Positions 24,687 to 32,130 of a stretch of 47,888 bases of DNA are shown piece by piece. Each line of letters begins with the position of its first letter. The first letter of the stretch is position 1. Under the pieces are notes generated by a model. The model had not been told where the DNA came from and made no database searches. It saw only the letters and a list, made by a program, of their open reading frames with translations. The DNA lies in the NCBI RefSeq assembly GCF_001428025.1, contig NZ_LMSC01000012.1:371798-419685 (forward strand), read 5' to 3'. The position numbers and the translations under genes are program-made. Source of the stretch: Phycicoccus sp. Soil748 (GTDB lineage Bacteria > Actinomycetota > Actinomycetes > Actinomycetales > Dermatophilaceae).

Positions 24687-26108
24687 TCAACCGACGGCTC
24701 CTTCCATCTGAAGCTCGATGAGGCGGTTGAGCTCGAGGGCGTACTCCATGGGCAGCTCGCGCGCGATGGGCTCGACGAACCCGCGCACGATCATGGCCAT
24801 GGACTCCTCCTCGGTCATCCCGCGGGACATGAGGTAGAACATCTGGTCCTCGGAGACCTTGGAGACGGTGGCCTCGTGGCCCATCGTCACCTCGTCCTCG
24901 CGGATGTCGACGTAGGGGTAGGTGTCGGACCGGCTGATGGTGTCGACCAGCAGCGCGTCGCAGACCACGCTCGAGCGGGAGCCGTGGGCACCCTCGAGCA
25001 CCTGGACCAGGCCGCGGTAGGAGGTGCGGCCGCCACCGCGAGCCACCGACTTCGACACGATCGTCGAGGAGGTGTTGGGGGCGGCGTGCACCATCTTGGC
25101 GCCGGCGTCCTGGTGCTGGCCCTCACCCGCGAAGGCGATGGACAGCGTCTCGCCCTTGGCGTGCTCGCCGAGGAGGAACACGGCCGGGTACTTCATCGTC
25201 ACCTTGGAGCCGATGTTGCCGTCGATCCACTCCATCGTCGCGCCCTCGGCGCAGGTCGCGCGCTTGGTGACGAGGTTGTAGACGTTGTTGGACCAGTTCT
25301 GGATGGTCGTGTAGCGGACGCGGGCGTTCTTCTTCACCACGATCTCGACGACCGCAGAGTGCAGCGAGTCGGACTTGTAGATCGGCGCGGTGCAGCCCTC
25401 GACGTAGTGCACGGAGGAGCCCTCGTCGGCGATGATCAGCGTCCGCTCGAACTGGCCCATGTTCTCGGTGTTGATGCGGAAGTAGGCCTGGAGCGGGATG
25501 TCGACGTGGACGCCCGGCGGGACGTAGATGAACGAGCCACCCGACCAGACCGCGGTGTTGAGCGCCGCGAACTTGTTGTCACCGGCGGGGATCACCGAGG
25601 CGAAGTACTCGCGGAACAGGTCCTCGTGCTCGCGCAGGCCGGTGTCGGTGTCGACGAAGATGACGCCCTTCTCCTCCAGGTCCTCGCGGATCTGGTGGTA
25701 GACGACCTCGGACTCGTACTGCGCCGCGACACCGGCGACGAGGCGCTGCTTCTCCGCCTCCGGGATGCCGAGCTTGTCGTAGGTGTTCTTGATGTCCTCG
25801 GGCAGCTCGTCCCAGGTGGTCGCCTGCTTCTCCGTCGACTTCACGAAGTACTTGATGTTCTGGAAGTCGATGCCGGTGAGGTCCGAGCCCCAGCTGGGCA
25901 TGGGCTTCTTGCCGAACAGGCGCAGCGACTTCAGCCGCAGGTCGCGCATCCACTCGGGCTCGCTCTTGCGGCCGGAGATGTCGCGCACGACGTCCTCGTT
26001 GAGGCCACGCTTGGCCGTGGCGCCGGCGCTGTCGCTGTCGGCCCAGCCGTACTCGTAGCGGCCCAGGTCCTTCAGACCCGGGTTCAGCTCCTCGATGTGG
26101 GTGGTCAT
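24687..26108 (-). CDS. sufB: Fe-S assembly scaffold subunit SufB
   Basis: A 473-residue SufB, the main scaffold on which new clusters form. Highly conserved stretches are [25 protein letters not shown]-type [39 protein letters not shown] (conserved Cys) and [14 protein letters not shown]. Two of the regions that carry inteins in some actinobacterial SufB proteins are uninterrupted here. The ATG overlaps the sufR stop by 4 bases (ATGA), so the regulator and scaffold are translated in series. Confidence 0.96.
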
Positions 26109-26881
26109 CGCGTGGACCCTTCTGTTGGTGTGACAGCGGTGGTGGTGGCGGGTGGGGTGCTCGGGGGGTGGGTGCCGGTCGCGGCCGGTGGGCTCGCGCC
26201 GGTCGGCACGAAGGTGGTGCACACGTGGTCGCCGTGGGCGAGCGTGGCGAGGCGCTGGACGTGCACGCCCAGCAGCCGTGAGAACGCATCAGTCTCAGCG
26301 TCACAGAACTGGGGAAATTCCCGGGCTGCGGCCTGGACCGGGCAGTGGCCCTGGCACAGCTGGATGCCGGTGAACGGCGACGGGCTCGCCTGCTCCCCCA
26401 CCGGGCGGGCTGACGCGGCGAACCCGTCGCGGGTCAGGGCGCCCACGAGGGCGTCGACCCGGGCGGCCGGTGAGGTGCCAGCGTCGGCGAGCTCCGCGGC
26501 GTACCGCTGCTCCAGGTCCGCGACACGCTGCTCGGCGAAGCGCCGGACCGCACCGTCGCCGGCCTCGTCGGACAGGAAGCGCAGCGCCTCCATGGCGAGG
26601 TGGTCGTAGTCGGAGTCGAGGGCCTGGTGGCCGGCGTCGCTCACGACGTAGGCCCGGGCGGGACGGCCGCGGCCGCGGTGGACGCCGGTCGGAGCCTGCT
26701 CGCGCTCGACGATGAGGCCGGCCTCCTCGAGGTTCTCGAGGTGGCGGCGGACGGCGGGGGTCGTGAGGCCGAGCTCCTCGGCGAGGGTCGCAGCCGTGAC
26801 CGGGCCCCGCTCGCTGGTCACCTTCAGCACCCGGTCGCGCGTGCGCGACTCGAGCACCTGGGGGGCGACAGCGATATTCAC
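26105..26881 (-). CDS. sufR: SufR, Fe-S-sensing transcriptional repressor of the suf operon
   Basis: A 258-residue regulator with an N-terminal winged helix (about 26-57, [20 protein letters not shown]) and cluster-ligand cysteines Cys176, Cys180 and Cys193 (LCQGHCPVQ and QFCDAE), as in cyanobacterial and mycobacterial SufR. Holo-SufR represses the suf genes and loses its cluster under iron limitation or oxidative stress. It is the first gene of the operon. I chose the GTG at 26881 because a TAACAT -10 box lies 7 bases upstream, giving a leaderless mRNA; the in-frame extension upstream is not conserved-looking. The C-terminal 35 residues are Pro/Thr-rich. Confidence 0.92.
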
Positions 26882-26888
26882 AACGCCA

Positions 26889-26899
26889 ATGTTACGTAA
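26889..26899 (-). promoter_or_regulatory. sufR promoter -10 box overlapped by a TTACGTAA palindrome
   Basis: TAACAT on the minus strand (26889-26894) ends 7 bases before the sufR GTG. The perfect palindrome TTACGTAA (26892-26899) overlaps it, with CAAT/ATTG flanks nearby. This AT-rich patch in a GC-rich genome is the likely promoter and autoregulatory operator of the whole suf operon. It does not match the mycobacterial SufR site that I remember. Confidence 0.5.
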
Positions 26900-26954
26900 T
26901 TGCGGTGACACTGCGAAAGCAAGGCCTGCCTTACCCGGCCGGGCCCGGCCCCCT

Positions 26955-29939
26955 TCAGCGGAGCAGGCCCCGCTCGCGGGCGACGGCGACCGCCTCACCG
27001 CGCCCGGCGACCCCGAGCTTGGCGAGGATGTTGGAGACGTGGACGCTGGCCGTCTTCGCGCTGATGAACAGCTGGGTGCCGATCTGCCGGTTGCTGCGCC
27101 CGAGCGCCACCAGGGCCAGGATCTCCTCCTCCCGTGGGGTCAGGGCCTCGCCCCGCCGTGAGGTCGGGCGCGCCGCGGGTCGCGCTCCGCCGGTGGCCCG
27201 GATCTCGGCCCGCAGGGGTTCTGCGCCCAGCCGCTGGGCCACGGCGAGGGCGGCCGACAGCTCCGCGGAGCCGCGCGGGTCACCGGCCGACTTCAGGGCG
27301 ACCCCGAGCCGGGCACGTGACCGGGCCGCTTCATAGGGGTGGCCGTAGGCGTCGAAGGCCGCGACCGCCTCCTCCCACCGCAGCACCAGCTGACCGGGGT
27401 CGACGTCCTCGCCACCGAGCCAGCGCAGTCGCAGCGCCTCGGCGCGCGAGCGGGCCAGCCACGCCGTCGACTCGGGCCCGTCGTTGCCGGGGCGCTGCAC
27501 CGCCTGGTCCCAGACGCGCTGCGTCGAGGCCTCGAGCTCGGCCCCACGGGCCAGCAGGGCAGCGCGCTGGGCCGACGGCACCCGCTGGACGTGGCTGCCC
27601 AGCTGGCCCAGCAGCAGCGTGTCGAGCCGCAGCTGCCCCTGGAAGAACGGGTGCCACACCCGGGTGAGCACCTCGACGACCTCGTCGTGGACCTCGATGG
27701 CGCGGTCGAGGTCCCCGGCATGGCCGAGGAGGTCGACGGCGGCACTGCCCGTGATGAGGGAGACCAGCCCCTCGCTGTCCCACCACGGCCGCGACGCGTC
27801 GTACCCCGCGACCGCGGCGCTCTCGCCGCGGCCCGCGGCGACGTACATCCGGGCACCGGTCAGCAGCGACGCGGCCGGCTCCGGGGGCATCTCACCCGCC
27901 ACGTCGAGGATCTCCAGGGCCTCGTCCCACCGGCCGCGCTCGTAGGCCGCGATGCCGGCCAGCAGGCGGCCGTCGAAGGCGTACGGGGCCCACTGACGGC
28001 CCCCGGCACGCGCCCGCTCGACGCCGCGGCGGTAGACGTCGACGGCCTCGTCGAGGCGGCCGGCGCGGTGGTGGAGCCAGCCGAGGTGGTGGTAGGCGCG
28101 CACCTCCGCGGGGTCGCCCGGCATGTGCGACGCGGCGATGACGGCCTCGAGCGCCGCTCGGGAGCCGTCAGGGTCGCCCGCACGCTCGGTGATGCGGGCG
28201 GCAACGACCTTCACCTCGTCGGCGAGCGCCGACTGCCGGGTGGCGAGGGCGGCGTCGACCGCCTCCTGCACGGCAGCCAGGGCCTCCTCGTCGCGACCGC
28301 GGTCGGCCAGGGCCTGCACCCGGGCGGCGAGCAGCTGGGCGCGCACGACCGGGTGGCCTTCCGCGACCAGGTCGAGCAGGCCGAGGCCCTCCTTGGTCGC
28401 CGCGAGGGTGTCGAGAGTGCTCTCGGTGATGCGGGCGGTCGTCGCGAGCGCCGCGAGGAGCTCGGCCCGACCGGCGGGGTCTGCGTCGACAGGACGCCGG
28501 GCCAGCCGCTCCTCGAGCAGGTCGAGGGCCTTGAGGGCACGCCCGGCGGCCGTGGCGGCGGTCGCCGCCTGCAACGTCACCGCGTCGAGCTCGCCCGCGG
28601 GGTCGTCCTCGGACACGAGCGCGAGCGCGCGGCTGAAGTGGCGGTAGGCCTCCTCGGGGCCCGCCATGCGCAGCGCCGACCCGCCGGCGCGGATGCTGGC
28701 GTCGCGGGCGACGTCGCGCAGGCCGGCCGCCTCCGCGTGACGGGCGAGGTCGGCCCACGTGCCCAGGGTGCGGTCCTCCGCGAGCGCCGCGGCATACCGC
28801 TCGTGGGCCCGGACGCGCTCCCCCGGCAACAGGTCGTCGTAGACCGTCTCGCCCAGCAGCGCGTGCCGGAAGGCGTAGCCGCCGCCCTCGCCGGGCACCA
28901 GGACGTGGTGCTCCACGGCGTCGCGCAGGCCGGCGTCGAGCTCGGCCTCGCCCAGCCCGGCGACCGCAGCCAGGGCGCGGTGCGAGACGTGGCGACCGGC
29001 CGCCGAGGCCATGCGCACCACGTGCTGGCCGGCGGCTCCGAGCTGGTCGAAACGCACGAGGAGCAGGCGCGAGAGGTCGTCCGCGAGCGCGGTCCGGCCG
29101 AGCGACGACGCAGCCACGAGCTCCTCGGCGAAGAACGCGTTGCCCTCGGCCCGCTGGACGACCGCACGGACGTCGCGCTCGGGCAGGGGCCGGGTCTGCA
29201 GGGCGTGGACCAGCTCGCGCACGGCCGCGTCGGGCAGCGGGTCGAGGTCGAGCCGCCCGACCTCGCCGAGGCGCGACCAGTGGGCGAGGGTGGCTCGCAG
29301 CGGGTGCCTGCGGTGCAGGTCGTCGCTGCGGTAGGAGGCCACGACGCTGACCGCTGAGGTGAAGCCGCGGGTGAAGAGGAGGGTGAGCAGGTCGCGGGAG
29401 GACTGGTCGGCCCAGTGCACGTCCTCGACCACGATCAGCACGGGGGTGCGGGAGCCGAGGTCCTCGAGAGTTGCGTGGACGGCCTCGACGAGGTCGCCCC
29501 GGTCGGCCGCGCCCCGAGGAGCGTCGTCGCCCAGCTCGGGGCGCCCCGCCCGGTCGTCGCGCCCGGGTACGTCGGAGCGCTCGGCGCGGCGGCCGGGTAC
29601 GAGGCGCGCCACGCCCGGGTGGGCAGCCACGAGCCGGTCGACCGCTTCCGGCTGGGCGCCCTCGAGCCGGCCGAGGAGCTCGCTGAAGGGCAGGTAGGGC
29701 AGGGACTGGCCCGTCTCGCCGAGGCAGTGGCCCACGAGGACCAGCCAGCCCGAGGCGCGGGCGGTGGCGACCACCTCGGACAGCAGCCGCGTCTTGCCGA
29801 TGCCGGCGTCGCCGGACAGCACGACGCTACCGTGACGGGACGACGACGCCGGCCCCCCTACGCCGAGCAGCTCGACGAGCCGCGCGACCTCGTCGTCGCG
29901 GCCGACGAACAGGCCGTTGCCGGCAGCCTCGAGACCCAC
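26955..29939 (-). CDS. LAL-type transcriptional regulator: AAA ATPase plus LuxR helix-turn-helix
   Basis: A 994-residue signal-transducing ATPase regulator of the LAL class (like MalT). It has an N-terminal FVGRDDEV start, Walker A GDAGIGKT at 43-50 and Walker B VLIVVEDVHWAD at about 167-178, a long helical repeat region rich in Ala/Glu/Arg (about 400-900, TPR-like), and a C-terminal LuxR helix-turn-helix from about 933 (LTPREEEILALVALGRSNRQ). I chose the GTG at 29939. A CATAAT box lies 7 bases upstream, and an earlier ATG at 30095 would overlap the small gene before it. Two small related genes lie directly upstream on the same strand and are the obvious candidate targets. The ligand is unknown. 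Confidence 0.9.
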   Translation of the reverse strand: MGLEAAGNGLFVGRDDEVARLVELLGVGGPASSSRHGSVVLSGDAGIGKTRLLSEVVATARASGWLVLVGHCLGETGQSLPYLPFSELLGRLEGAQPEAVDRLVAAHPGVARLVPGRRAERSDVPGRDDRAGRPELGDDAPRGAADRGDLVEAVHATLEDLGSRTPVLIVVEDVHWADQSSRDLLTLLFTRGFTSAVSVVASYRSDDLHRRHPLRATLAHWSRLGEVGRLDLDPLPDAAVRELVHALQTRPLPERDVRAVVQRAEGNAFFAEELVAASSLGRTALADDLSRLLLVRFDQLGAAGQHVVRMASAAGRHVSHRALAAVAGLGEAELDAGLRDAVEHHVLVPGEGGGYAFRHALLGETVYDDLLPGERVRAHERYAAALAEDRTLGTWADLARHAEAAGLRDVARDASIRAGGSALRMAGPEEAYRHFSRALALVSEDDPAGELDAVTLQAATAATAAGRALKALDLLEERLARRPVDADPAGRAELLAALATTARITESTLDTLAATKEGLGLLDLVAEGHPVVRAQLLAARVQALADRGRDEEALAAVQEAVDAALATRQSALADEVKVVAARITERAGDPDGSRAALEAVIAASHMPGDPAEVRAYHHLGWLHHRAGRLDEAVDVYRRGVERARAGGRQWAPYAFDGRLLAGIAAYERGRWDEALEILDVAGEMPPEPAASLLTGARMYVAAGRGESAAVAGYDASRPWWDSEGLVSLITGSAAVDLLGHAGDLDRAIEVHDEVVEVLTRVWHPFFQGQLRLDTLLLGQLGSHVQRVPSAQRAALLARGAELEASTQRVWDQAVQRPGNDGPESTAWLARSRAEALRLRWLGGEDVDPGQLVLRWEEAVAAFDAYGHPYEAARSRARLGVALKSAGDPRGSAELSAALAVAQRLGAEPLRAEIRATGGARPAARPTSRRGEALTPREEEILALVALGRSNRQIGTQLFISAKTASVHVSNILAKLGVAGRGEAVAVARERGLLR

Positions 29940-29946
29940 ACCGGCG

Positions 29947-29952
29947 ATTATG
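29947..29952 (-). promoter_or_regulatory. -10 box CATAAT of the LAL regulator gene, leaderless geometry
   Basis: CATAAT on the minus strand ends 7 bases before the GTG at 29939 and no Shine-Dalgarno sequence intervenes. It supports a separate promoter for the regulator, downstream of the small genes. Confidence 0.45.
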
Positions 29953-30006
29953 TCGGAGGGCACCGACGTCGTGGGGTGGGTCCGGGGGGCCGCGGTGGCC
30001 GCCACG

Positions 30007-30183
30007 TCAGGCGGTGCGAGCCACGCCGTGGCGGTGGTGCAGCCGCGGTGCTCGGCTGAGCAGCGCGAGGGCTGCACCGTGGTGTCGGCGGGCACGCCGC
30101 GCGGTGGGCAGCCCGGAGGCCAGCCTCTCGCGGCGGTAGTCGACCTCTGCGGTGACGAACAGCGGGTCTGCGGTGATGCTCAT
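30007..30183 (-). CDS. Small basic protein, first of two related genes upstream of the LAL regulator
   Basis: A 58-residue protein of unknown function. The first 20 residues follow the pattern T-A-x-P-L-x-V-x-A-E-V/L-x-aromatic-basic-x-E-x-L that it shares with the next gene (positions 4-21 of each). The rest is Arg- and His-rich (RRARRHH, LHHRHG). GGAG lies 5 bases before the ATG at 30183. It is preceded, 70 bp upstream, by a 15-bp element that is repeated in front of its relative. No transmembrane segment or signal peptide is seen. The gene is real on the evidence of the ribosome site plus the paired paralogue; the function cannot be guessed. Confidence 0.6.
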   Translation of the reverse strand: MSITADPLFVTAEVDYRRERLASGLPTARRARRHHGAALALLSRAPRLHHRHGVARTA

Positions 30184-30252
30184 GGTGCTCTCCTTCGACG
30201 GTCGTGCTCTGGTGGTGTGGTTCCACGCTGCGGTCCTGAGGTGCCTGCCCAC

Positions 30253-30267
30253 ATGGGGCAGGTGCCC
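30253..30267 (-). promoter_or_regulatory. Copy 1 of a duplicated 15-bp palindromic element
   Basis: ATGGGGCAGGTGCCC on the plus strand, containing the dyad GGGCA-GG-TGCCC, is identical to the copy at 30587-30601. It lies 70 bp upstream of the start of the 58-residue gene. A second conserved block, GCTGCGNTCCTGAGG, adjoins both copies on the gene-proximal side. In this copy CCTGCCC at 30244-30250 also mirrors GGGCAGG, extending the dyad. Confidence 0.6.
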
Positions 30268-30321
30268 TATTCGGCGGCGCGCTCCGGAGCGGGGGCCTCA
30301 GACAGGCCCTCGGACGGGCCC

Positions 30322-30513
30322 TCAGACAGGGCGGGGCGTGTGCCGCGGTCGCCGCGCGGAGAGGCGCACGACCAACCTGCGCCAGGGGTGGCTGCCTCTG
30401 GTGGCGTGCCGCGTGTGGGCGCTCGCGGTCGTCGCGAGGTTGGCGCCGCCGAGGCTCTCCTGCTTCCACTGCAGCTCGGCGAGGACCGTGAGGGGGTGGG
30501 CGGTGAGGTTCAT
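30322..30513 (-). CDS. Small basic protein, second related gene upstream of the LAL regulator
   Basis: A 63-residue protein that begins like its neighbour (L-T-A-H-P-L-T-V-L-A-E-L-Q-W) and then turns into a Thr/Ala and Arg-rich tail. The sequence GAGGAG stands 6 bases before the ATG at 30513, a better ribosome site than most genes here have. The same 15-bp palindromic element as in the neighbour lies 74 bp upstream. The two proteins share the N-terminal pattern but diverge afterwards, so they look like old duplicates. The function is unknown, and no homologue can be named from sequence alone. Confidence 0.6.
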   Translation of the reverse strand: MNLTAHPLTVLAELQWKQESLGGANLATTASAHTRHATRGSHPWRRLVVRLSARRPRHTPRPV

Positions 30514-30586
30514 GTCTTCTCCTCGGGTGGGACGTCCCCGGGTGGGGCGCTGCAGTCGAGGCTGCGCTCCTGAGGCCCCCTCGGGC

Positions 30587-30601
30587 ATGGGGCAGGTGCC
30601 C
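30587..30601 (-). promoter_or_regulatory. Copy 2 of the duplicated 15-bp palindromic element
   Basis: ATGGGGCAGGTGCCC, identical to copy 1, 74 bp upstream of the 63-residue gene. The flanking block GCTGCGCTCCTGAGG is one base different from that of copy 1. On the other side it lies 46 bp before the -10 box of the divergent ABC transporter gene, so it could influence both directions. Confidence 0.6.
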
Positions 30602-30646
30602 AGTCCTCACCGGCGCCCCGTGGCACTGAGGTGGGCGCGTCGCGCC

Positions 30647-30652
30647 TAGACT
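30647..30652 (+). promoter_or_regulatory. -10 box TAGACT of the ABC transporter pair, leaderless geometry
   Basis: TAGACT ends 6 bases before the GTG at 30659 and there is no ribosome-binding site. No clear -35 box is visible. Confidence 0.5.
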
Positions 30653-30658
30653 CGGGGC

Positions 30659-31378
30659 GTGCCACCAGCAGTCGTCGTCCAGGGCCTCGCCAAGCGCTAC
30701 CGCGGCGTCGTCGCCCTCGACGGAGCGACGTGGACCGCGTCCGCAGGCCGGGTCACCGCCGTGCTGGGACCCAACGGCGCCGGCAAGACGACGATGGTCG
30801 AGTGCTGCGAGGGCCTGCGCCGTCCTGACTCCGGCGAGGTGCGCGTCCTCGGCACCGACCCCTGGCACGCGGCTGCCGACCACCGCGCCCGCGTCGGCGT
30901 GATGCTTCAGGACGGCGGCCTGCCCAACTCCGCCCGCCCCCTGCCCCTGCTGCGCCACCTCCGTTCCCTGTATGCCGCGCCGGCCGACCTCGAGGGACCG
31001 GAGGGGCTCGTCGCCCGCCTGGGCATCGGCGCCTTCGGCGCGACGTCGGTGCGCCGACTGTCCGGCGGCCAGCGCCAGCGGGTCGCGCTCGCGGCCGCGC
31101 TCGTCGGACGGCCCGAGGTCGCCTTCCTCGACGAGCCGAGCGCCGGCCTCGACCCGCACGCCCGACTCGACGTCTGGGACCTCGTCCGCGAGGTCGCCGA
31201 CGCGGGCGCAGCCGTGGTCCTCACGACCCACTCGTTCGAGGAGGCCGAGCGCCTGGCCGACCACATCGTCGTCGTGGCCGCGGGTCGCGTCGTGGCCGAG
31301 GGCACGCTCGACGAGGTCACGGCCGGCCAGCGGCTCGAGGACCGCTACTTCGCCCTCACCCGCAAGGCGGTCGCATGA
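30659..31378 (+). CDS. ABC transporter ATP-binding protein (exporter type)
   Basis: A 239-residue single ATPase domain with Walker A LGPNGAGKTTMVE near 33-45, Q-loop MLQDGG, signature LSGGQRQR and Walker B VAFLDEPSAGLD, followed by an H-loop (TTHSFEEAE). It pairs with the next gene, whose ATG overlaps its stop by 4 bases (ATGA). Together they form an ABC-2 exporter. A similar pair stands next to ctaA in Mycobacterium (Rv1457c-Rv1458c region), so the linkage to heme A synthesis is old. The substrate is unknown. Confidence 0.92.
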   Translation: MPPAVVVQGLAKRYRGVVALDGATWTASAGRVTAVLGPNGAGKTTMVECCEGLRRPDSGEVRVLGTDPWHAAADHRARVGVMLQDGGLPNSARPLPLLRHLRSLYAAPADLEGPEGLVARLGIGAFGATSVRRLSGGQRQRVALAAALVGRPEVAFLDEPSAGLDPHARLDVWDLVREVADAGAAVVLTTHSFEEAERLADHIVVVAAGRVVAEGTLDEVTAGQRLEDRYFALTRKAVA

Positions 31379-32130
31379 CCACCGCCACCGCCGCGGCCCC
31401 TGCCCGCGCCCGCGTGCTCTCGCAGGCCCGGTTCGAGGCCGTCACCCTCCTGCGCAACGGCGAGCAGCTGCTCGTGGCCCTCGTCCTGCCCATAGCCGTC
31501 CTCGTCGGGCTCGTGTCGACCACCGGCATCTCGGTGGGCAGCGGACGACGCGTCGACCTCGTGGTGCCCGGCGTGCTGGCCCTGTGCGTGATCTCGTCCG
31601 CCTTCACCGGCCAGGCGATCTCCGTGGGTTTCGACCGCCGCTACGGCGTGCTGCGGCTGCTCGGGGTCTCGCCCCTGGGCCGCACCGGGCTGCTCGCGGC
31701 GAAAGCCACCGCGGTCCTGTCGGTCATCGGCCTGCAGCTCGTGGTCCTCGGCGCGGTAGGCCTCGCACTCGGCTGGAACCCGGCGTGGTCCGGGGTGCCG
31801 GCTGCGCTGGTGTCGGTGCTGCTGGGGACGTGGGCGTTCGTGGCCCTGGCCCTGCTGCTCGGCGGAACGCTGCGGGCCGAGGGCGTGCTCGCCCTCGCCA
31901 ACCTCGTGTGGCTGGTCCTGCTCGCCCTCGGCGGCGTCGTGATCGCCGGGAGCGAGCTGCCGGACCGGTTTGCCCCGGTCGTGGCGCTCCTCCCCTCGGC
32001 GGCCCTCGGCGACAGCCTGCGGGTCGCGCTGGTCCACGGGTCGGTGAGCCTCTCGGACTGGGCCGTCCTGGTCGTGTGGGGCGCGCTCGCCACCGCGCTG
32101 GCCCGGCGCCTGTTCCGCTGGAGCGACTGA
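31375..32130 (+). CDS. ABC-2 type transporter permease
   Basis: A 251-residue membrane protein with about six hydrophobic helices, including LLVALVLPIAVLVGLVS, LVVPGVLALCVISSAFTG, VLSVIGLQLVVLGAVGLAL and ALVSVLLGTWAFVALALLL. It forms the membrane part of the exporter whose ATPase is encoded just upstream with a 4-base overlap. The topology fits the ABC-2 family, with short cytoplasmic ends and a conserved glycine-rich third helix. A long reading frame on the opposite strand overlaps its second half; codon pattern and family match clearly favour this strand. Confidence 0.9.
   Translation: MTTATAAAPARARVLSQARFEAVTLLRNGEQLLVALVLPIAVLVGLVSTTGISVGSGRRVDLVVPGVLALCVISSAFTGQAISVGFDRRYGVLRLLGVSPLGRTGLLAAKATAVLSVIGLQLVVLGAVGLALGWNPAWSGVPAALVSVLLGTWAFVALALLLGGTLRAEGVLALANLVWLVLLALGGVVIAGSELPDRFAPVVALLPSAALGDSLRVALVHGSVSLSDWAVLVVWGALATALARRLFRWSD

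Follow-up and report, generated by a model that had tools for sequence, protein, structure and literature searches.

In a 47,888-nucleotide stretch of the Phycicoccus sp. Soil748 genome (hereafter the window; contig NZ_LMSC01000012.1), two tiny open reading frames (ORFs), each preceded by a copy of the same DNA element, lie ahead of a gene encoding a 994-residue regulator of the LAL family. The element is almost certainly a promoter with a built-in operator, and with moderate confidence we read it as that of an autoregulated module in which the LAL is co-expressed with a fast-evolving microprotein partner. At the level of sequence, the motif and its position, the invariant -10 bases, the agreeing leaderless starts, the co-occurrence with LAL, the linkage of element, tiny ORF and LAL, and the recurrence of the tiny ORFs are all established by the comparisons below. 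The features concerned run in the order tiny ORF A with element 2, tiny ORF B with element 1, the LAL gene, a SufR-like gene and a SufB-like gene, all on the minus strand (the Suf names were read from translations).

30559..30601, minus strand: element copy 2, putative promoter of the 63-residue ORF; core at 30570-30591, with 5 mismatches to the family core
30559..30564, minus strand: predicted -10 hexamer of copy 2, CAGCCT; start site predicted near 30552
30322..30513 including the stop codon, minus strand: tiny ORF A, 63 residues, MNLTAHPLTVLAELQWKQESL..., without a Pfam or NCBIfam match
30225..30271, minus strand: element copy 1, putative promoter of the 58-residue ORF, aataGGGCACCTGCCCCATGTGGGCAGGCACCTCAG...; core at 30236-30257, with 2 mismatches to the family core
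30225..30230, minus strand: predicted -10 hexamer of copy 1, CAGCGT; start site predicted near 30218
30007..30183 including the stop codon, minus strand: tiny ORF B, 58 residues, MSITADPLFVTAEVDYRRERL..., the LAL-adjacent copy, matched in 10/10 same-genus relatives searched
29945..29958, minus strand: CTCCGACATAATCG, directly 5' of the LAL GTG, a possible second, LAL-proximal promoter
26955..29939, minus strand: LAL regulator, 994 residues, GTG start at 29939; AAA_16 ATPase, TPR, C-terminal GerE/LuxR helix-turn-helix

The promoter element

The window locus is best described as two tandem cassettes, each of a predicted promoter element and a tiny ORF, ahead of LAL; a single cassette is the usual arrangement elsewhere. 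The original prediction had drawn attention to two identical 15-mers (GGGCACCTGCCCCAT on the coding strand; 30253-30267 and 30587-30601), a gene-side block accompanying each (GCTGCGNTCCTGAGG; 30227-30241 and 30561-30575) and the two small ORFs behind them, all of which were confirmed, as were the distances of 70 bp and 74 bp from the 15-mers to the two ATGs. The spacing from 15-mer to block is identical in both copies. The exact 15-mer is not scattered genome-wide, occurring twice in the 3.97 Mb of the organism's own genome, both times at the window promoters. With its 13th base left free, three exact matches and four places with a single mismatch were obtained, the third exact match being a one-base variant within a coding sequence read as methionyl-tRNA-synthetase-like.

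Two copies of the longer element were found before two tiny ORFs in 11/11 same-genus genomes (0-2 mismatches). Other places in these genomes with 2 mismatches or fewer were limited to G005:C1:3247450 and G010:C28:227850 (G-numbers denote genomes, g-numbers genera and L-numbers loci; f45 is another family), the second of which ties at 2 mismatches with both true sites of G010. Matches at 3 mismatches resemble the reversed control, and a third, distant tiny-ORF paralog in G002 is preceded by a 3-mismatch element. Since copy 1 of the window departs from the family core at two positions and copy 2 at five, copy 2 is the divergent one.

The DNA upstream of LAL was read for 86 of the 88 orthologs in the window's family (G038 and G185, where LAL lies at a contig end, were left out) and for 25 additional LAL loci outside it, from 21 of 30 f45 genomes plus G081, G248, G492 and G509; the outside set is biased, as 20 of the 25 were first spotted via the element. 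In a scan of 1.6 kb upstream of LAL for CCSATGTG-N5-CTACCTCAG with at most 3 mismatches, the element was present in 104/111 loci (83/86 in the family and 21/25 outside), representing 34 genera, and the best site had 0, 1, 2 or 3 mismatches in 44, 31, 19 and 10 loci, respectively. The reversed control of the 111 upstream regions yielded no site at 3 mismatches or fewer and three at 4. The LAL site of G002 has 4 mismatches and, judging by its surroundings, is the same element. The proposal that a duplicated promoter is under selection is supported.

With genera weighted equally, the full core reads gATARGGCR...CCSATGTG-N5-CTACCTCAG-N6-A-N3-T; within the gATARGGCR block one G is conserved at 0.97 and one T at 0.88. 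The palindrome GGGCA-GG-TGCCC, put forward in the original prediction, did not survive as the functional core, nor did the 15-mer that contains it: it varies outside the genus, where CCSATGTG-N5-CTACCTCAG and A-N3-T persist. In G727 (L255), the CTACCTCAG of the element is preceded, at a distance of about 30 bp, by an additional CCTACCTCAG block, as though half-sites were directly repeatable. For the core in general, a dyad reading C-Y-GA-K-GT-R-G, noted by eye only, holds at 6/9 positions.

The A and the T of A-N3-T are invariant at 104/104 sites, and the first base of the hexamer is T at 0/104; these two columns played no part in site picking. An A at -11 and a T at -7 are the signature of a sigma-70-type -10, and A-N3-T appears to fit it. 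As a rule the predicted -10 is SANNST and thus off-consensus, while the -35 position is occupied by TGTGGG-like hexamers, a consensus -35 being absent. For five tiny ORFs (G501, G604, G741, G748 and G754) the start codon comes only 17-18 nt past the core; it follows the -10 by 7 nt in the first four and by 6 nt in G754, and these apparently leaderless genes agree with the predicted start site. Seven picked starts lay within 18 nt of the core, but G121 and G768 were regarded as mispicks because a more typical tiny-ORF start is found further down in the same frame, which leaves the five counted as leaderless. From the -10 and start-site geometry, the operator would extend from about -53 to -18, the core (CCSATGTG-N5-CTACCTCAG) occupying about -39 to -18. 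The predicted start site falls about 35-49 bp downstream of the 15-mer, in keeping with the distance of about 40 bp first suggested.

An RNA element was considered as well and rejected, the element being upstream of the predicted start site and an Rfam gathering search of window positions 26000-32000 returning 0 matches. Directly before the LAL GTG, CTCCGACATAATCG resembles a leaderless promoter that would serve only LAL; its ACATAAT core is present in 9/111 loci, only in the window genus and g42. A divergent ABC transporter, so named from its translation, lies on the other side of the cassettes.

Association of the element with LAL

The 994-residue protein has the composition of a LAL regulator, namely an N-terminal AAA_16-type ATPase (7.9e-25), a TPR region (TPR_12, 8.5e-9) and a C-terminal GerE helix-turn-helix (4.6e-17) within the usual length of about 900-1000 residues. 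Its identity as MalT proper was rejected, as the NCBIfam MalT model scored 43.3 bits against a cut-off of 537 and matched the helix-turn-helix part only, and the GGGGA(T/G)GAGG boxes were not seen in the element consensus in a by-eye comparison with the box of PMC7567727. Orthologs were defined by E <= 1e-85, other long matches falling at about 1e-44 to 1e-53, and were found in 88/186 family genomes. The ortholog is in two pieces or has internal stops in G005, G053, G143, G157, G166, G174 and G185, and a remnant is present in G047; broken genes and assembly errors are both possible causes.

The core pattern with at most 1 mismatch was found in 61/88 family genomes having LAL versus 7/98 lacking it (Fisher p 7e-20). 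The pattern is strict at this threshold and misses 27 LAL-containing genomes, the window's own among them. Because the reversed pattern matches 17/186 family genomes, the rate in LAL-less genomes is that of chance. Five of the LAL-less matches (G047, G050, G161, G194 and G222) are without A-N3-T, and no tiny ORF of the expected type was seen beside them; a further one, in G172, has a tiny ORF that lies at the end of a contig. In f45, the element is present in 16/21 genomes with LAL versus 0/9 without (p 1e-4). Across the class, 22/345 genomes match versus 1 in the reversed control, and G528, G715 and G723 among the 22 look like chance, lacking A-N3-T or a nearby LAL match; in the order sample, 12/297 match (reversed, 1), all in the window's family except G248.

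Eight neighbours of the window locus were sought in 29 relatives' loci from 19 genera, using stretches of about 12-17 kb; any were kept only in g1, g42, g2 and g44, and none in 15 genera. Passive linkage to the SUF/cox15 block was rejected on this ground. In these comparisons the element, tiny ORF and LAL stay together while neighbourhoods change. The suggestion that LAL is the natural candidate regulator is supported: by co-occurrence and by linkage in changing neighbourhoods it is the best candidate, probably the regulator of the element, and we infer that it binds there. In G171 (C1:1434658; L166 6160-6420), a more distant LAL-like gene is immediately followed, rather than preceded, by an element with 2 mismatches and a tiny ORF (MSQLDLHLARSIAAERHRTVV...).

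Tiny ORFs and orphan promoters

Relatives also have such tiny ORFs: E values of the matches to tiny ORF B in the genus range from 1.7e-21 to 0.004, and when both paralogs were combined in a profile, each of the 11 genus genomes gave at least 2 matches. A candidate of 35-106 residues (median 55) was picked behind 104/104 elements by a picker that favoured an AE..YR-like signature. The start lies a median of 50 nt after the core, the gap to LAL is 150 nt or less in 96/104, and nearly all candidates have a ribosome-binding-like sequence or are leaderless. Seven of the tiny proteins, tested against Pfam and NCBIfam, matched 0 families. A second motif, SSLEVIRR-like, is common to eight genera, a group chosen by that motif. 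The small ORF behind the element in G029 (L153) departs from the usual type in being hydrophobic and membrane-like at its start.

Differences at the three codon positions are coding-like in g18 (.152/.105/.355), where the leader is flat near.6, and in g81 they are.144/.109/.171, below the.24-.27 of the leader. A mild third-position bias is seen in g28 plus g40 (.374/.358/.474) and in g1 (.291/.340/.395); hardly any bias appears in g47 or the pooled SSL group, and in g173, whose sequences align poorly, the bias is reversed. The view that these are chance ORFs was rejected, as their recurrence behind elements and the codon periodicity in g18 speak against it, although dN/dS gives only part of the support. 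The tiny ORFs appear to be translated and are probably functional, though fast-evolving, and a function for the protein product itself is quite likely.

Orphan sites, that is, those away from a LAL start, in LAL-containing genomes also bear A-N3-T. Orphan elements with A-N3-T stand before tiny ORFs in G002 (C11), G741, G748 and G100. In G145, the tiny ORF behind the orphan ends 4 nt before a WhiB-like gene; in G146 and G149, the element is directly before WhiB-like genes; and in G123 one orphan (C237) is followed by a small ORF and then, about 304 nt on, by a WhiB-like gene of uncertain start codon, while another (C173) is followed by a small ORF with a membrane-protein-like ORF. The second site of G034 (L152) is an orphan with a small ORF that is hydrophobic and membrane-like at its start. 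The Pfam Whib domain was detected in the G146 (5.5e-13) and G123 (2.7e-13) proteins, neither of which matched an NCBIfam family, and the G145 and G149 proteins were recognized as WhiB by eye only. The G146 protein, the only one so compared, comes closest among solved proteins to M. tuberculosis WhiB7 (1e-23; WhiB1, 1e-6). WhiB7 is described as having an EPW motif and an RGRP-type AT-hook (PMC10727445); by eye, EPW is present in G123 and ERW in G145, G146 and G149, with tails reading GRPRK or GRPPK. WhiB7-like orphan targets occur in two genera. The original picture of small basic proteins under the regulator is therefore too narrow, since the genes behind some of the orphan promoters are WhiB7-like.

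Proposed regulation, rival explanations and known systems

In the mechanism we favour, RNA polymerase would use the off-consensus -10 without a consensus -35, and an activator, most likely LAL itself, would bind gATARGGCR...CCSATGTG-N5-CTACCTCAG (about -53 to -18). The activated transcript would encode a mostly basic microprotein of 35-106 residues and, in most genomes, LAL just downstream, and the microprotein would most likely act on LAL in a feedback role comparable to that of MalY and Aes towards MalT. It is this MalT analogy that leads us to favour LAL as a self-activator with a tiny-protein partner. On its strength we infer activation rather than repression, and LAL is reasonably likely to be the activator at the element; an action of the tiny protein on LAL is possible, with a chance that we put somewhat below even.

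Several observations weigh against this mechanism. An operator overlapping the -35/-10 spacer also suits a repressor. The scan of 1.6 kb upstream of LAL did not find the element in G052, G043, G676, G684, G706 and G761, although G043 has an element and a tiny ORF at the end of a contig other than that of LAL, and G052 has a tiny-ORF-like ORF without the element. In G100 (C5:20388; L150), the sole true exception, the element and tiny ORF persist although the genome yielded no LAL ortholog, and, because most elements adjoin LAL, the co-occurrence partly reflects linkage. The recurrence of tiny ORFs at 104/104 is not an unbiased count, given the signature favoured in picking. Selection at the protein level, clear in some genera, is weak in others: dN/dS, which strong codon bias may confound, is 0.30 in g18, 0.40 in g28, 0.64 in g40, 0.65 in g81, 0.72 in g1, 0.86 in g47, 0.88 in g48 and 1.61 in g173. 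Over the first 22 codons, the part of the tiny ORFs most alike between genera, it is 0.39 in g18 and 0.44 in g28, 0.93-1.05 in g1, g81, g47 and g40, and above 2 in g48 and g173.

The tiny ORF might instead be an upstream ORF encoding a leader peptide without a function in trans, its translation controlling the downstream regulator (LAL, or the WhiB7-like gene in G145). Its position between promoter and regulator, within 150 nt of LAL in most loci and 4 nt before the WhiB-like gene in G145, and the fast evolution of the peptide suit this explanation, as does the precedent of attenuation by the whiB7 upstream ORF in actinobacteria (PMC10727445). We nevertheless consider it unlikely, because a scan of window positions 29800-30700 for terminator-like hairpins, at this locus only and requiring a T run, found 0 (shuffles, 0.1), and because tiny ORFs also stand alone behind the element, as in window ORF A (where another promoter follows), G100, G002:C11, G741 and G748. 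Less likely still is LAL as an autorepressor that covers the -35 and spacer and shuts its own promoter. The core at about -39 to -18 is well placed for this, but the absence of a consensus -35 and of T at the first -10 base suggests a promoter needing help, and MalT activates from sites overlapping the -35 in Actinoplanes and E. coli (PMC7567727). Recognition of the element by an alternative, ECF-type sigma factor or by another regulator, with LAL merely a target, would also account for the missing T and for the G100 locus, but seems to us quite improbable, as LAL-less genomes contain the element no more often than chance would give (five of the 7 matches among 98 lacking A-N3-T) and sigma recognition does not usually involve 9 conserved bases between -35 and -10.

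LAL regulators and their autoregulation are already known; for few of the actinobacterial LAL/STAND regulators, to our knowledge, has an operator or an input been defined. Neither this operator type with its spacer block nor the microproteins turned up in the Pfam and NCBIfam scans or, by title or the start of the abstract, in the literature searched. More tentatively, the module could represent an undescribed, widespread actinobacterial switch, in which a STAND/LAL sensor and a hypervariable microprotein partner are co-expressed from a promoter type of about 50 bp with a conserved spacer operator, and whose output feeds WhiB7-like regulators in some lineages. The tiny protein, diversifying while its promoter is nearly fixed, might then serve LAL as a lineage-specific ligand or as a piece of its sensor. 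Because the motif is sharp and its geometry clear, the regulon of one LAL subfamily can be computed and tiny proteins absent from family libraries come to light; the orphan sites suggest an upstream input to WhiB7-like regulators, and the binding target and control of LAL become directly testable questions in laboratory strains.

Among known systems, the RRNPP peptide-receptor pairs (PMC10075063) also set a TPR regulator beside a small ORF; in contrast to these, LAL has a C-terminal helix-turn-helix and an ATPase, and a secretion signal is not obvious by eye in most tiny ORFs. whiB7 genes are usually preceded by an upstream ORF and attenuator (PMC10727445), recalling the short ORF between promoter and regulator seen here, and WhiB7-like genes are among the element's targets; the present case differs in that a terminator hairpin was not found at the window locus and some tiny ORFs have no regulator following them. 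The likeness to MalY and Aes, the separate proteins that hold MalT (PMC10427625), is that a STAND regulator could have its activity set by another protein; those two are enzymes, whereas the candidate partner here is tiny and mostly basic, its gene lies between the promoter and the regulator, and its interaction is putative. The MalT-type LAL/STAND regulators themselves (E. coli MalT and Actinoplanes MalT; PMC7567727) share the ATPase, TPR and C-terminal GerE helix-turn-helix and an operator overlapping the -35, and the MalT hexamer GGA(T/G)GA resembles an element half-site reading yGA(T/G)GT, a by-eye likeness that serves as a lead only. In contrast to MalT, the full MalT box is absent, the operator (CCSATGTG-N5-CTACCTCAG preceded by a gATARGGCR block) extends into the spacer, and the targets of the element are the tiny ORFs, LAL itself and WhiB7-like genes.

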